NCBI RefSeq assembly: GCF_000011905.1
Contig: NC_002936.3
Location: forward strand, 372,001-436,000
Source of the DNA: Dehalococcoides mccartyi 195
GTDB taxonomy: Bacteria; Chloroflexota; Dehalococcoidia; Dehalococcoidales; Dehalococcoidaceae
Direction: 5' to 3'
Length of the DNA: 64,000 nt
Shown: piece after piece, positions 2,712 through 10,092 of the stretch
Layout: the number at the start of each line of letters is the position of its first letter
How positions within the stretch are numbered: the first letter of the stretch is position 1
Notes under the pieces: model-generated
What the model saw: only the letters and a program-made list of their open reading frames with translations
The model's database searches: none
What the model was told of the DNA's origin: nothing
Translations under genes and position numbers: made by a program

Positions 2712-4082
2712 TTATTTAGCGCCGGCCAAACCTATAAAACCGGCTATATCTTCTACACTAATCTTGCCCAGGGTGTCAACTATCATATCAGCTTCGCTCA
2801 GGGCCTGGGGTTGCTGGCTGTTGGTAACAGCTATGCATTTCATACCGGCTTTCTTGGCGGCTTCCACTCCGGCGGGTGCGTCTTCTATTACCAGGCACTC
2901 TTCCGGGCTGGCGCACAGTCTGGCGGCCGAGAGTAAGAATATCTGGGGGTTGGGCTTGCCCTTGGTGACATCTTTTTCGCTGACTGTAGCCAGGAAGTAG
3001 TCCCCTATACCCAGTTTAGTCATAACCAGCTTGATATTGGCCAGCGGTGCCGAAGATGCAATGGCCATGCGGTAACCGGCTGTTTTCAGGGATTTTAAAA
3101 GTTCTATCACACCGGGAAACAGCTGTATCTCCTGCCCGGCGTATTCACGGAAAAGGTGTTCCTTGCGGTCAGCCAGAGTGTGGATAGTATCCGCGTCTGA
3201 CTTCTCACCCAGCACCGAATAAATTATCATGTCATTCCGCAGGCCGAAGGTACGGTAAAAATCTGCTTCGGAAAAAGTATAACCTATCTCCGCAAAAGTA
3301 GTCTGCCATGCCCGCATATGAAAGGGGGCGGAATCTGCAATTACCCCGTCCATATCCCAGATAACGGCTTTGTTTTGGGAGAGCGGCAGGCCGGTGCGGT
3401 GTTTGCGGGGGGATATCTGGGGGCGGCGCAGGTAAAGCGGTTGCAAACCGGCAGGGCTGTCAGTCAGGCCGTCTTCAATCCTCTTTTTAGCCAGCCGTGC
3501 CAGCGAGGCTGCCCTTGAAGGGCGTATATCAGCCGGGGCAAATACTGCTTTTTTATCTCCAAGCAGGGCTTTAAGCTCGGTTTGGCTGGTTTGGCTTATC
3601 GGCCCGCAGATAACACAGGGTTCACTGACTTCAGCGGCTAAATCAGCCAGATTGGTGATATAGGGTTTAACCTCTTCTTTTAAGCCGTCTCCGTTCTTTT
3701 GGTAGATCGCTGCGGCATATTCCTGCTGTCCTGAGGGCAGTAATGCCCACACCTTAAGGCCGCTTGCCAGATAGGGGTAGGCGGCCAGTTCCAGTGTGCC
3801 GATACCGCACAGGGGGATATCCAGAGCAAAAGCCAGGCTTTTGGCGGTGCTCAGGCCTACTCTTAAGCCGTTAAAACTGCCCGGCCCTATGGAAACCGCA
3901 ATGGCTGAGGCATCTTTAAGGCTTAGCCCGGCTGACTCAAGCAGCCACTCCAAACGGGGCAGCAGCTCTACCGTCTGGTTTTGGTGGCTTAGCCAGTTGT
4001 ACTGGGCCACTATTTCATCATCTTTAAGGACAGCCAGCCCGGTGTCCGGGGTGGCTGTATCAATGGCTATTAAAACCGGCAT
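2712..4082 (-). CDS. tsaB: Fusion: TsaB (tRNA t6A synthesis) + HAD-family phosphatase
   Basis: The 456-residue protein joins two families. Residues 1 to about 221 are TsaB/YeaZ: an ASKHA fold with AIDTAT (6-11), SIGPGSFNGLRVG (64-76) and the typical TsaB ending PLYLRR (215-220). TsaB is the scaffold for TsaD in making N6-threonylcarbamoyladenosine at position 37 of ANN-decoding tRNAs. Residues from about 238 to 450 are a beta-phosphoglucomutase-like HAD hydrolase, with DMDG (243-246), a serine motif in ASSAP, a lysine in KGKPNP and the acidic EDAPAG. Both catalytic sets look intact. The gene overlaps tsaE by 23 bases. Most bacteria carry TsaB alone, at about 220-230 residues; the HAD substrate is unknown. 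Confidence 0.93.
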   Translation of the reverse strand: MPVLIAIDTATPDTGLAVLKDDEIVAQYNWLSHQNQTVELLPRLEWLLESAGLSLKDASAIAVSIGPGSFNGLRVGLSTAKSLAFALDIPLCGIGTLELAAYPYLASGLKVWALLPSGQQEYAAAIYQKNGDGLKEEVKPYITNLADLAAEVSEPCVICGPISQTSQTELKALLGDKKAVFAPADIRPSRAASLARLAKKRIEDGLTDSPAGLQPLYLRRPQISPRKHRTGLPLSQNKAVIWDMDGVIADSAPFHMRAWQTTFAEIGYTFSEADFYRTFGLRNDMIIYSVLGEKSDADTIHTLADRKEHLFREYAGQEIQLFPGVIELLKSLKTAGYRMAIASSAPLANIKLVMTKLGIGDYFLATVSEKDVTKGKPNPQIFLLSAARLCASPEECLVIEDAPAGVEAAKKAGMKCIAVTNSQQPQALSEADMIVDTLGKISVEDIAGFIGLAGAK

Positions 4083-5678: not shown

Positions 5679-5707
5679 TTGACAATTAGTACATTGAGGA
5701 ATATTAT
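5679..5707 (+). promoter_or_regulatory. Consensus promoter of the methyltransferase-cyclase-prenyltransferase operon
   Basis: A perfect TTGACA (5679-5684) and TATTAT (5702-5707) are separated by exactly 17 bases. This is the strongest sigma-70-type match in the window. Start of transcription is predicted near 5714, giving a leader of about 135 bases. Confidence 0.75.
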
Positions 5708-5720
5708 TGATTTTTGAAAT

Positions 5721-5801
5721 CGCCATTAGTGTGGCGTTTTTGTTTGGCACTTACTCAAAAAAGCTGAGTTTTGTCATTGGTGGGTTCCCCGTTTCAATGA
5801 C
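5721..5801 (+). promoter_or_regulatory. Structured leader with terminator-like hairpin (possible attenuator)
   Basis: Three inverted repeats follow the promoter. CGCCAT and GTGGCG (5721-5736) form a short stem with loop TAGT and are followed by TTTTTGTTT, which looks like a weak intrinsic terminator. ACTCA/TGAGT (5753-5769) forms a second stem. GTCATTG/CAATGAC (5773-5779 and 5795-5801) forms a third. Together they occupy most of the untranslated leader. I do not recognise a known riboswitch; regulation is inferred from position only. Confidence 0.4.
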
Positions 5802-5849
5802 TTCAGATATGGAATATGTCTAAATAAATGCTTCAAAAGGTGATAGCTG

Positions 5850-6626
5850 ATGAGTAGTTTGGCCGAAGCGCCTATCCATGACCCCGGATTTGACTCTGAA
5901 GAGGCGCATAAACGTAAACAGTATATGGTTGACTTGTTCGTAGTCCAAGCAAAAAACTACGATTTCCATGATGATGTTTTCGGGCTTTATGCCCACCGTT
6001 TCTGGATGCGGACCGTTCTTAAGATAATGGGGCGGTTTCTGAAAGACCGGAAGCATGTTGATATGCTGGATTTGGCCTGCGGCACCGGCTTTGTTACCTT
6101 CAATACAGCCAGAAACTTTGACAATGTTGACATAGAGGCCTTTGATATCAGCCCGGATATGCTGGCCGTTGCTAAAGAACGCTACGAAAAGTATTTCAAA
6201 GGGCGGAACATCAAGTTCTGGCGGGGTGATGCCGAAGTTCCCTTTGGCGAAGAGAAATATGACCTGGTAACTACCAGTTTTGCTTACCGCAACTTTGCCA
6301 ACAAAGGCATTGCCACCGAAAACGTTTTCAATGCCCTGAAGCCGGGCGGTCTGTTTATTATTCAGGACCTTACCAAACCCGAACGCCACCCCATGCGCGG
6401 GCTGTATATATTCTACATGAAGTATATCCTGCCGGTGCTTACCGGCATTCTGGGCACCGAAAAATCCGCTGCCCGCTGGCTTTACAAGTCTGCCATGATG
6501 ATGCCCACTAACGGGCAGATTGTAAAACTGATGGAAAGTAAAGGCTTTGAGAAATGCCAGTACAAGAGCCTGTCACTGGGTATTGCCTGCGTAATCTGGG
6601 GTTTCAAGCCGGAGAAATCAGAATAA
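5850..6626 (+). CDS. MenG/UbiE-type SAM-dependent methyltransferase, first paralogue
   Basis: The 258-residue protein is a class I methyltransferase. Its SAM-binding motif I, LDLACGTGF, is near residues 73-81, followed by an acidic strand end (FDIS), the motif GDAEVPF and ALKPGG, as in the MenG/UbiE family that methylates prenylated quinone rings. AAGGTGAT before ATG 5850 sets the start. It heads a five-gene operon and is a close paralogue of the next gene, sharing the N-terminal DPGF-SEEA motif and much of the core. A quinone-like substrate is suggested by family and by the neighbouring UbiA gene, but not shown. Confidence 0.85.
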   Translation: MSSLAEAPIHDPGFDSEEAHKRKQYMVDLFVVQAKNYDFHDDVFGLYAHRFWMRTVLKIMGRFLKDRKHVDMLDLACGTGFVTFNTARNFDNVDIEAFDISPDMLAVAKERYEKYFKGRNIKFWRGDAEVPFGEEKYDLVTTSFAYRNFANKGIATENVFNALKPGGLFIIQDLTKPERHPMRGLYIFYMKYILPVLTGILGTEKSAARWLYKSAMMMPTNGQIVKLMESKGFEKCQYKSLSLGIACVIWGFKPEKSE

Positions 6627-6627
6627 G

Positions 6628-7395
6628 ATGAGCAGTGTGAATGTAAGCGTAAAAGACCCCGGTTTTGAGTCTGAAGAGGCTCAGGCCCGCAAGCGTTATA
6701 TGCTCCAGCTGTTTGGCTTTCAGGCCAAACACTATGATTTGCACGATGATATTATAGGTATGGGTATTCACCGCCGCTGGGGCAAAGAGATGGTTTTAGA
6801 GATACTGACCTATACCCGCAATATGCCCCAGGTGAAAATGCTGGATTTGGCCTGCGGGACCGGTTTTGTTACCTTTAACACTCTGCGTTACATGAATAAT
6901 GTGGATATAGACGCCTTTGATATTACCCCCGAAATGGTGGAAGTAGCCAAGGGGCGGCTCAAGAAAAACTACCCTGACCGCAATGTAAAGTTCTGGGTGG
7001 GTGATGCCGAGGTACCCTACGGGGATGCCAAGTACGATGTTATCGGCACCTGCTTTGCCTTCCGCAATTTTGCCAACAAAAATCTGGCGGCCTCTAATAT
7101 TTTTAAAGCACTTAAACCGGGCGGTCTGCTGGTTTTGCAGGATATGACCAAACCCGAAAAACAGCCCTTCCGCGGTATTTACCTGTTTGCCTTGAAAAAC
7201 TTGATGCCCATCATGGCTCGGATAATAGGCACAGAACGCAAATCAGCCCGGTATCTGGCAAATTCGGTGCTGGCCATGCCCAGTAACGCGGAAATAATGT
7301 CTATCCTCCAGAATCAGGGTTTTATAAATATCAAATCCCGCTATCAGAGCGGTGGTATGGGTACACTGACCGTGGCCTATAAGCCGGAGAATTAA
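6628..7395 (+). CDS. MenG/UbiE-type SAM-dependent methyltransferase, second paralogue
   Basis: The 255-residue protein follows the first paralogue by a single base and shares its layout: DPGFESEEA near the N-terminus, LDLACGTGF (72-80), GDAEVPY and ALKPGG. The two copies differ clearly in the C-terminal third, where substrate specificity usually lies. Tandem duplication with divergence suggests two successive methylations or two related substrates. Cotranscription with the cyclase and prenyltransferase genes is nearly certain from spacing. Confidence 0.85.
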   Translation: MSSVNVSVKDPGFESEEAQARKRYMLQLFGFQAKHYDLHDDIIGMGIHRRWGKEMVLEILTYTRNMPQVKMLDLACGTGFVTFNTLRYMNNVDIDAFDITPEMVEVAKGRLKKNYPDRNVKFWVGDAEVPYGDAKYDVIGTCFAFRNFANKNLAASNIFKALKPGGLLVLQDMTKPEKQPFRGIYLFALKNLMPIMARIIGTERKSARYLANSVLAMPSNAEIMSILQNQGFINIKSRYQSGGMGTLTVAYKPEN

Positions 7396-7396
7396 A

Positions 7397-8491
7397 ATGG
7401 GTAAAGTGGATACACTGGCTTATGACATTGGGAATAACCGTACCCGCCACGTATATATAGGCAGTGACATACTGGGTAGTCTGCCCGAATATGCAAAACA
7501 GCTAAATGCGGACAAATTTTTTATAATAACTGATTCCAATCTGGAAAATATTCTAAAAGATAAAATAAAAGATTTGCTTTCCGGGGTGACCGAAACCCAC
7601 CTGCTGGCTTTCCCGGCCGGTGAAGCCTCAAAAACTCTGTCTACTCTGGAAGACATAGGCTCAAAAATCCTTGACCTCAGGGCTACCAAATCAAGCGTTA
7701 TCGTCTGTTTGGGGGGTGGGGTAGTAGGGAATCTGGGCGGTCTTACCGCCGCACTCCTTTTCAGGGGTTTGCGCTTTTTCCATATTCCTACCACCATGGT
7801 TGCCCAGATAGACAGTGCCATTGGCCAGAAACAGGCCGTTAACTACAAAATGGGTAAAAACCTGTTCGGACAGTATTATGCCCCTGAGTTTGTCTTTATA
7901 GATTTTAATTTCCTGCGGACTCTGCCCGAACGCCAGATACGGGCGGGTTTGGCCGAATCTGTAAAACACGGCTTGTGCCAGGAATCCTCCTTTTTTGACT
8001 ATATAGAAGAACACGCCGGTGATTATTCGCCGGAAGTTATAGATTATATCTCCCGCCATACCATAGAGCTTAAGCTGGAGCTGCTTAAGATTGACCCCTT
8101 TGAGGGCAAGCTTGACCCCCAGCTGGAGCTTGGGCATACCATAGGCCATGCGGTAGAGATTATTAAAAACGGCCAGCTTTTGCATGGTGAGTCCATTGCT
8201 ATCGGCATGGTGGCTGAGGCCGCCCTTTCCTGTGAGATGGGCTATATGAAGCCCGAACTGGCCGCTAAAATAGAGCGTATTTTCAAGAAGCTGGGTTTGC
8301 CCACCCGTATTCCGGCGGATGTTCCTCTGGAAGGGGTGCTGGAAGCCCTGCGCTATGATAACAAACGCCGTACTGCCCGTACAGACTTCTTTTTGCTTGA
8401 GGATTTTACCCGTTTCCACAAGGAAAATGGTAAAATAGGTACCAAGGTTTCTGAAGAGGTTTTGAAGAAAGTTCTTGAAAGCGCTTACTAG
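7397..8491 (+). CDS. Dehydroquinate-synthase-like sugar phosphate cyclase
   Basis: The 364-residue protein belongs to the AroB superfamily, NAD- and metal-dependent cyclases that turn sugar phosphates into carbocycles. The probable metal ligands are present: E187, H247 in GHTIGH and H263. Two signature sites depart from ordinary AroB: GGGVVGN (106-112) has Asn where AroB usually has Asp, and the segment after DSAIG reads QKQAVN (144-149) in place of the usual GKTGVN-like loop. From memory these resemble the 2-deoxy-scyllo-inosose synthase branch. It begins 1 base after the second methyltransferase and overlaps the prenyltransferase gene. The context argues against a housekeeping shikimate role; the true product is unknown. 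Confidence 0.8.
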   Translation: MGKVDTLAYDIGNNRTRHVYIGSDILGSLPEYAKQLNADKFFIITDSNLENILKDKIKDLLSGVTETHLLAFPAGEASKTLSTLEDIGSKILDLRATKSSVIVCLGGGVVGNLGGLTAALLFRGLRFFHIPTTMVAQIDSAIGQKQAVNYKMGKNLFGQYYAPEFVFIDFNFLRTLPERQIRAGLAESVKHGLCQESSFFDYIEEHAGDYSPEVIDYISRHTIELKLELLKIDPFEGKLDPQLELGHTIGHAVEIIKNGQLLHGESIAIGMVAEAALSCEMGYMKPELAAKIERIFKKLGLPTRIPADVPLEGVLEALRYDNKRRTARTDFFLLEDFTRFHKENGKIGTKVSEEVLKKVLESAY

Positions 8492-9395
8492 CGAACGTCC
8501 GGATTTTCAGGACTGGATACAGGCTGCCCGTCTCAAGTTCCTGCCCCAGGGTGTAATGCCGGTGGTAATAGCCGGCGCTTTGGCTTTTTCTGAAGATACC
8601 TTTGACGTAGTCAACTTTGTAGTGGCCTTTTCAGCCGCTGCCGCTGTTCAGATTGGCCTTACCATGTTTAATGACACCCTTGATTATGTTTATGGCACTG
8701 ATTGCAAACATGCTGATGCCAAAAACCCTTTTTCCGGCGGGAGCGGGGTTTTTACCTGTGGGGTTATAAAGCCCCGCCAGTCCCTCCTGGTTATCTTCTC
8801 TCTGTATTTCTTCGCCCTGCTGTGTGCCATTTATATGGCGCTGGATATGGGCTGGGGGGTTATGTGGATTGCCGTTATCGGGGCGGCTATTTCCATACTC
8901 TATTCTGCTAAACCCATGCGTCTGGCTTACCATGGCCTGGGTGAGCTGATGATGCTTATCGGTTACGGGCCGGTGCTGACAGCCTGGGGGTATTTTGTGC
9001 ATACCGGTATGGTTAACCGGGATGTGCTGCTGATAGGTGTTATACCGGGTTTGTGCATGTGGGCAATGATACTTATAAATGAGATACCTGATTATCAGGA
9101 AGACCGGGCCGCCGGTAAACGTAACCTGACTTATCGCCTGGGGCCTAAAAATGCCAAAAATCTTTTCAGTATCTCTTTGGCAGGCCTTTACACCTATATA
9201 CTGGCACTTGTATTTACCGGGGTGATGCCCCCGCTTTCAGCCATATCCTTAGGCGGTATCCCTCTGGCAGTTATGGCTGTCAGGATTGCCCACCGCTATT
9301 ATAATGACCCCATAAAGGTAGCCATGGCCAATAAATTGATGGTCATAATATATTCGGTCACAACTGCTACGGTGGCCATAGGGATGTTGACATAA
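8475..9395 (+). CDS. UbiA/MenA-type membrane prenyltransferase
   Basis: The 306-residue integral membrane protein belongs to the UbiA superfamily, which joins a polyprenyl diphosphate to an acceptor ring. Both aspartate-rich motifs are present: NDTLDYVYGTD (66-76) followed by NPFSGGSG, and NEIPDYQED (202-210). About eight or nine hydrophobic helices can be seen. The first motif with SGGSG resembles MenA-type enzymes. The start TTG 8475 lies inside the end of the cyclase gene (17-base overlap); no better start is available without losing the N-terminal helix. The acceptor may be the product of the upstream cyclase, which is inference. Confidence 0.85.
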   Translation: MKALTSERPDFQDWIQAARLKFLPQGVMPVVIAGALAFSEDTFDVVNFVVAFSAAAAVQIGLTMFNDTLDYVYGTDCKHADAKNPFSGGSGVFTCGVIKPRQSLLVIFSLYFFALLCAIYMALDMGWGVMWIAVIGAAISILYSAKPMRLAYHGLGELMMLIGYGPVLTAWGYFVHTGMVNRDVLLIGVIPGLCMWAMILINEIPDYQEDRAAGKRNLTYRLGPKNAKNLFSISLAGLYTYILALVFTGVMPPLSAISLGGIPLAVMAVRIAHRYYNDPIKVAMANKLMVIIYSVTTATVAIGMLT

Positions 9396-9997
9396 TGGTA
9401 GCCCCCAGTTTTTTTGAAAAAGTTGCCCCGGTATACGAATTTTTAACCCGTATGTTTATGCTGGGTACATTTGAAAGTGCCCGTGACAGAATGCTGAATG
9501 AAGATACCTCGGCTTTCAGTGTTCTTGACCTGTGTACCGGTACCGGGTATATTGCCAACAAGATAGAAGCAAAGCGGATTGTAGGTTTAGACCAGTCTGT
9601 CCAGATGATGGCCCTTAATGACCGCACCAAACGCCCCAACAAAACTCTGGTACGGGGAAATGCTTACCATCTGCCGTTTGAAGACGGGGAGTTTGAGCGT
9701 ATTTATTGCTCCAGTGCCAGCCACGAGTTTAAACTCTTCGGTAAAGTACTGGCGGAATGCTTCCGTACCCTGAAGCCCGGCGGTAAGGTGGCTGTTTATG
9801 ATATTTACCAGCCCAAAAACAAGTTTTATTCCCTGATAGTCAATACTATATACCGTTATCCTGTTGAGCATAATATTATGTGGGTGCATACGCTGGAGGA
9901 ATGGCGCAAGCTTTTGACCGAAGCCGGTTTTGAGGTAGAGGAGCTGGAAGCTGTGCGGGGGGTATTTGTATTTGTGCGGGCCCGTAAACCTGTTTAA
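9395..9997 (+). CDS. SAM-dependent methyltransferase, third of the operon
   Basis: The 200-residue class I methyltransferase is more divergent and shorter than the two upstream copies. It has motif I LDLCTGTGY (44-52), a GLDQS strand end, LPFEDGEFE and TLKPGG. The ATG overlaps the prenyltransferase stop by one base (TAATG), so translation is coupled. It ends the operon; a strong hairpin terminator follows. It probably modifies the same molecule as the other enzymes, but the target is not known. Confidence 0.83.
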   Translation: MVAPSFFEKVAPVYEFLTRMFMLGTFESARDRMLNEDTSAFSVLDLCTGTGYIANKIEAKRIVGLDQSVQMMALNDRTKRPNKTLVRGNAYHLPFEDGEFERIYCSSASHEFKLFGKVLAECFRTLKPGGKVAVYDIYQPKNKFYSLIVNTIYRYPVEHNIMWVHTLEEWRKLLTEAGFEVEELEAVRGVFVFVRARKPV

Positions 9998-10023: not shown

Positions 10024-10056
10024 AAACAGGCCTTATGCAAGGCCTGTTTTATTTTT
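10024..10056. terminator. Intrinsic terminator after the five-gene operon
   Basis: An 11-base-pair perfect stem (10024-10034 with 10039-10049) has loop ATGC and is followed by a T-rich tail. A-runs at the other side would let it act in both directions. Confidence 0.85.
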
Positions 10057-10092
10057 CCGCAACAGGTATAGCTAAAAATGGACAGTGGGCAC

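Follow-up and report, generated by a model that had tools for sequence, protein, structure and literature searches.

A conserved five-gene operon in Dehalococcoides mccartyi 195 predicted to direct synthesis of a prenylated, methylated ring lipid

In the EBO operon (eboA-F) of cyanobacteria, Bacteroidetes and eustigmatophyte plastids, a sugar-phosphate cyclase of the AroB superfamily that is not a dehydroquinate synthase (DHQS) is combined with a UbiA-superfamily prenyltransferase, and the product has been proposed to be an isoprenoid-cyclitol (PMC5133447). In the BE-40644 cluster of Actinoplanes, as described in PMC5133447, the product of a sugar-phosphate cyclase is likewise prenylated later by a UbiA-superfamily enzyme. 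Here we describe a five-gene operon of Dehalococcoides mccartyi 195 that has this cyclase and prenyltransferase pairing in common with EBO, and that uses the same classes of prenyltransferase and C-methyltransferase as the late steps of menaquinone and ubiquinone synthesis (MenA/UbiA, MenG/UbiE/Coq5). The analysed stretch, called the window, comprises the 64,000 nucleotides C1:372001-436000 of the closed single-contig genome (1,469,720 bp), and positions follow window numbering unless marked C1 or with a locus handle. With moderate confidence, we lean towards reading the operon as one dedicated to making a six-membered-ring lipid that bears a polyprenyl chain and methyl groups. This lipid would most likely be quinone-like and would be made without the shikimate/chorismate route. 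A literature search of limited coverage found no description of the operon in Dehalococcoides; an earlier description may exist.

The genes encode, in order, two UbiE/MenG/Coq5-type methyltransferases (MT1 and MT2), the cyclase, the prenyltransferase and a third, UbiE-related methyltransferase (MT3). A preliminary description of this DNA had recognised these enzyme classes, their close packing and a strong promoter ahead of them, and had suggested a self-contained pathway that forms a carbocycle, prenylates it and methylates it. All five products pass the Pfam cut-offs (PF01209 for mt1, mt2 and mt3, PF01761 and PF24621 for the cyclase, PF01040 for the prenyltransferase), and successive genes are spaced by 1 bp and 1 bp and then overlap by 17 bp and by 1 bp. 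The order mt1-mt2-cyclase-ubiA-mt3 is intact in the window, in L032-L040 and in L044, and holds up to the contig end in L042 and L043. The intact loci belong to three Dehalococcoides genomes, to seven genomes of a second Dehalococcoidaceae genus, which is presumably Dehalogenimonas, and to L044. Since the order holds across these 13 loci, the grouping is not due to chance, nor are the genes scattered in relatives. The operon adjoins thiL-tsaE in Dehalococcoides, L042 and L044 and precedes ksgA-ispE in Dehalococcoides and L044; in the second genus the set of five is flanked by other genes but is still together. The dN/dS values of the operon genes are 0.006-0.10, mostly at or below those of five flanking genes (0.07-0.15), and the operon is under strong purifying selection. 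Enzyme classes, operon structure and constraint support the suggested pathway in outline, while we still infer that the ring is prenylated within it, that the ring has aromatic or redox character, and how many methyl groups it receives.

The best single NCBIfam match of the cyclase is aroB, at 283.3 bits, which lies below the TIGR01357 equivalog cut-off of 305. The canonical AroB is encoded by a separate gene 60 kb away (C1:439782-440759), within a complete run of DAHP synthase-aroB-aroD-aroE-aroK-aroA-aroC-pheA-tyrA, and is 34% identical to the operon cyclase, which is thus not the sole AroB of the genome. Residues were compared by aligning 13 operon cyclases, in the numbering of Aspergillus nidulans DHQS. 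In 13/13, Asp stands in place of DHQS Arg264 and Glu in place of Asn268, and the KT/KV and DKK motifs of DHQS are KQ and DNK; the metal ligands E187/H247/H263 and the catalytic Lys/Glu are retained. The DHQS residues are intact in the genome's own AroB and in the remaining DHQS-type sequences of the alignment, L012 and L016 being left out. Arg264 of DHQS contacts the substrate carboxylate, and its loss therefore points to a substrate that has none; the ring probably derives from a sugar phosphate of this kind. The operon cyclase has the KQ motif (Lys141-Gln of BtrC), the Glu (Glu243 of BtrC), DNK and the lack of the DHQS Arg in common with the 2-deoxy-scyllo-inosose synthase (DOIS) BtrC (2GRU/2D2X). 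At the position of the DHQS Arg, DOIS has Gly/Ala whereas the operon cyclase has Asp, and unlike DOIS it lies outside any aminoglycoside cluster. Three groups were recovered in the tree, namely DHQS, DOIS together with L045, and the operon clade (100/99 support), with the operon cyclases outside both of the other groups. On residues and tree we assign the cyclase to a new sugar-phosphate cyclase clade that is DOIS-like in its predicted active site and falls outside the DOIS clade.

An AlphaFold model of the cyclase built from a 23-sequence alignment has the full superfamily fold at a pLDDT of 91.8 (a model from 10 close sequences gave 70). It matched 3zok with Z 49.3 (rmsd 1.7, 354 aligned), 2gru with Z 42.9 (2.4, 357) and ValA 4p53 with Z 40.6 (2.4, 341). 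DHQS and DOIS are not separable by this fold comparison, and are separated by residues and tree only. If the cyclase were a DHQS that is redundant or has diverged, and the operon a relic of quinone synthesis, then both the aroB match and an overall fold near DHQS as well as DOIS would be accounted for. We consider this very improbable, since the carboxylate-binding Arg and its partner Asn are replaced in every operon cyclase aligned, the organism has its own aroB in a full aro operon, and dN/dS is low. Archaeal-type ether lipid synthesis, whose glycerol-1-phosphate dehydrogenase is a distant relative of the cyclase, was ruled out because the AroB-family scores were far higher. Among the sequences grouping with BtrC is L124:1958-3193 from a plasmid of Streptomyces sp. 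SAT1, which carries the DOIS fingerprint and is annotated as 'iron-containing alcohol dehydrogenase', probably a misannotation.

The prenyltransferase scores 90.7 bits against PF01040 (cut-off 34.2), and its Asp-rich motifs NDTLD and NEIPDYxED are invariant (N66..D70..D76 and N202..D206..D210). Its closest NCBIfam models are those for MenA, the best giving 141.5 against an equivalog cut-off of 264 that is not reached, and UBIAD1 (8djk) was the only PDB match of its profile. MT1 and MT2 are about 50% identical to each other, and the best PDB match of their profile was Coq5 (4obw, 5.8e-31); the closest solved relatives of prenyltransferase and methyltransferase pair thus both belong to lipoquinone synthesis. 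The seven PF01209 matches in the genome include only two of full length, MT1 and MT2, in whose alignment the S-adenosylmethionine (SAM) motif DxxCGTG is conserved; the match in MT3 is partial. Against TIGR01934, MT1, MT2 and MT3 score 151.9, 147.4 and 72.4 bits, below the cut-off of 158.35. The single trans-prenyl synthase gene of the genome adjoins metG, some 7-8 kb ahead of the operon; its product is closest to heptaprenyl and solanesyl diphosphate synthases. Position -5 of its first Asp motif is occupied by Ala, which we take to fit long-chain products. The main role of long-chain trans-prenyl synthases is to supply quinone side chains, and the presence of one in a supposedly quinone-free cell is notable.

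The preliminary description had seen no men or mqn genes in the window, and for MenD and MqnA/D this absence extends to the whole genome. MqnA/D (PF02621) and MenD over cut-off were each found in 0/14 operon genomes, with control genomes positive for both, and the weak MenD matches in operon genomes resemble acetolactate synthase. Judged by gene content, the ring would come from neither the chorismate nor the futalosine route, and the methyltransferases do not form part of standard menaquinone synthesis. Alternatively, the UbiA and UbiE enzymes could complete the synthesis of a known quinone, menaquinone or another, starting from a scavenged compound such as dihydroxynaphthoate, with the cyclase serving some unrelated end. 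The relationship of these enzymes to MenA and MenG, and the life of Dehalococcoides alongside other bacteria, would be in line with such salvage. Several observations make it improbable: the cyclase is locked in the operon, its gene overlaps that of the prenyltransferase and ranks with the best conserved in the operon, and menaquinone needs fewer than two or three methyltransferases. In the tree, moreover, the operon UbiA enzyme forms its own clade, not nested in the MenA clade of other Dehalococcoidia. It is the sole UbiA-family protein in 9/9 operon genomes tested; the seven other Dehalococcoidia tested have two to four (6/7) or none (one genome).

For the dedicated pathway that we favour, the following sequence of steps may be proposed. 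Using NAD+ and a divalent metal, the cyclase would convert a carboxylate-free sugar phosphate, of a class suggested by its residues and most likely glucose 6-phosphate, to a 2-deoxyinosose-type cyclic ketone. Loss of water, to which we can assign no enzyme and which is purely conjectural, would then give an electron-rich, probably aromatic ring; 2-deoxy-scyllo-inosose (C6H10O5) minus two H2O, for example, would yield 1,2,4-benzenetriol. In the presumed order, the MenA-like UbiA enzyme would next add an all-trans long polyprenyl chain supplied by the sole trans-prenyl synthase, and the two UbiE/Coq5-type enzymes and MT3 would add up to three methyl groups at sites that are likewise presumed. 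Coq5/UbiE enzymes act on polyprenyl hydroquinols, and for this reason a quinone-like product is preferred over a plain cyclitol lipid.

Several points weigh against a quinone-like product. The five genes include no dehydratase, decarboxylase or hydroxylase, which leaves aromatisation unexplained, and the product and enzyme activities are predictions from sequence. Quinones were not detected in D. mccartyi membranes, according to work cited in PMC10772276, and known quinone potentials have been argued to be unsuited to reductive dehalogenases (PMC2930330). If the ring were never aromatised to a quinone, then the product would be a non-redox isoprenoid-cyclitol lipid with a membrane, protective or signalling function. 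The missing aromatising enzyme and the published failure to detect quinones agree with such a lipid, as does the interpretation given to the cyclase and UbiA pair of EBO operons (PMC5133447). EBO operons are, however, not described with UbiE-type methyltransferases, while two full-length Coq5-like enzymes are encoded here next to a MenA/UBIAD1-like UbiA enzyme, and the EBO cyclase is placed near sedoheptulose-7-phosphate enzymes whereas the operon cyclase is DOIS-like. We regard the cyclitol lipid as possible but unlikely.

The quinone-like reading bears on organohalide respiration. Dehalococcoides is reported to have no quinones or quinone biosynthesis genes and to respire through a stand-alone complex (PMC10772276, PMC10624902, PMC5736913, PMC6005880). 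Dehalococcoides and Dehalogenimonas are both described as quinone-free, and models of energy conservation have been built on that (PMC10772276, PMC10624902, PMC5736913, PMC2930330). The quinone pathways of Dehalococcoides have also been called incomplete (PMC2930330), and both genera are listed as being known to lack secondary-metabolite gene clusters (PMC5270213). The predicted structure of OmeB shows a quinone-like pocket, called possibly an artefact by its authors (PMC10772276). We infer, more weakly than the pathway itself, that the product may act at this pocket of the organohalide-respiration complex. Only tentatively do we suggest the fuller picture, in which obligate organohalide respirers would possess a new, chorismate-independent membrane quinone, made by the new cyclase clade, aromatisation, polyprenylation and methylation, that occupies the OmeB site. 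The operon points to a definite molecule that can be sought and makes the absence of a lipophilic redox carrier testable, its product is a candidate ligand for the unexplained pocket, and if the ring is aromatised the route to a quinone would be an unusual one that bypasses chorismate. A 2005 paper by White et al., cited in PMC2930330, reportedly announces ubiquinone-8 in Dehalococcoides in its title, and the product is a possible source of what that title reports.

The orthologous cyclase was found in 14/156 Dehalococcoidales genomes, comprising 11/11 Dehalococcoidaceae and three genomes from two other families, and no further ortholog was found in samples of 197 genomes of the class and 400 of the phylum. 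The genome of strain 195 has at least 13 reductive-dehalogenase genes. A reductive dehalogenase (TIGR02486) is present in 13/14 operon genomes versus 35/142 other Dehalococcoidales (Fisher test, 7e-7, shared ancestry ignored), and at least 10 matches occur in 12/14 operon genomes versus a maximum of seven in the 35 dehalogenase-positive genomes without the operon. This link is an association and not proof, and its confounding by shared ancestry also counts against the quinone-like reading. NrfD-family proteins are not operon-specific, being present in 14/14 operon genomes and 11/22 others. One Dehalococcoidales genome, G306, has seven reductive-dehalogenase matches, no operon, and MenD over cut-off; among the tested dehalogenase-positive genomes without the operon it is the only case with MenD. 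It may be a hint that Dehalococcoidales with many dehalogenases possess either menaquinone or the operon.

The region singled out in the preliminary description begins exactly at the -35 box of the operon promoter (Table 1). TTGACA with a -10 box at 16-18 bp (10-11/12 matches) is found upstream of mt1 at 13/13 loci, and its score was reached by 0-8/500 shuffled sequences in 12 loci and by 60/500 at L044. The leader holds three inverted repeats conserved in Dehalococcoides, of which the first, CGCCATnnnnATGGCG followed by T5, is terminator-like and lies directly after the promoter; a repeat GTCATTG..CAATGAC is also conserved in the three Dehalococcoides genomes. An Rfam search of the leader returned no family and no riboswitch, and control of the operon by attenuation is possible from the repeats.

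Table 1. Features of the operon region, in window coordinates.
Feature	Position	Strand	Evidence
Sigma-70-type promoter TTGACA-17-TATTAT	5679..5707	+	11/12 consensus matches
Leader with conserved inverted repeats, possible attenuator	5714..5849	+	conserved in three Dehalococcoides genomes
mt1 (MT1), UbiE/MenG/Coq5-type SAM methyltransferase, 258 aa	5850..6626	+	PF01209 2.4e-42
mt2 (MT2), UbiE/MenG/Coq5-type SAM methyltransferase, 255 aa	6628..7395	+	PF01209 3.1e-37
Sugar-phosphate cyclase, AroB superfamily, 364 aa	7397..8491	+	PF01761+PF24621, active-site residues, tree
UbiA-superfamily prenyltransferase, MenA/UBIAD1-like, 306 aa, TTG start	8475..9395	+	PF01040 1.2e-25
mt3 (MT3), short UbiE-related SAM methyltransferase, 200 aa	9395..9997	+	PF08241 1.3e-16, PF01209 1.8e-13
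Strong intrinsic terminator, 11-bp stem (10024-10049) + T tract	10024..10057	+	downstream of mt3

Some neighbouring and related loci were also noted. In L038, L039 and L040 of the second genus an extra open reading frame of about 112-114 aa without a Pfam match lies between ubiA and mt3 (e.g. L040:9085-9429), and is possibly an accessory gene. Elsewhere in the window, a 456-aa open reading frame (2712-4082, minus strand) fuses a TsaB-like domain (PF00814) to a HAD-type hydrolase (PF13419). The closest cyclase outside the phylum among the matches listed, 38% identical, is that of L045, which has non-ribosomal peptide synthetase neighbours and no UbiA or UbiE gene. This Clostridia metagenome-assembled genome encodes a cyclase with DOIS-type residues (L045:5914-7053) beside the peptide synthetase genes and a gene for a 302-aa protein (L045:7397-8305), and the locus may be an unrecognised cyclitol-peptide cluster.

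Compared with EBO, the Dehalococcoides operon has no EboA, no TatD-like EboB, no xylose-isomerase-like EboE and no phosphatase EboF, and none of its five proteins has a TatD-like or phosphatase Pfam match; three UbiE-related methyltransferases are present instead. The cyclases differ as well, since EboD has been placed near sedoheptulose-7-phosphate enzymes and the operon cyclase carries DOIS-type residues. BE-40644 is an actinobacterial secondary metabolite with a farnesyl chain, made with an EEVS acting on sedoheptulose 7-phosphate, and no UbiE pair is mentioned in its description (PMC5133447). Menaquinone and ubiquinone synthesis differ from the operon in their early steps, as it is accompanied by neither MenD nor MqnA/D, and its enzymes score below every curated MenA/MenG/UbiE cut-off. 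As judged from these comparisons, what is new here is the addition of UbiE-type methyltransferases and of a new cyclase clade to the known pairing of a cyclase with a UbiA enzyme.

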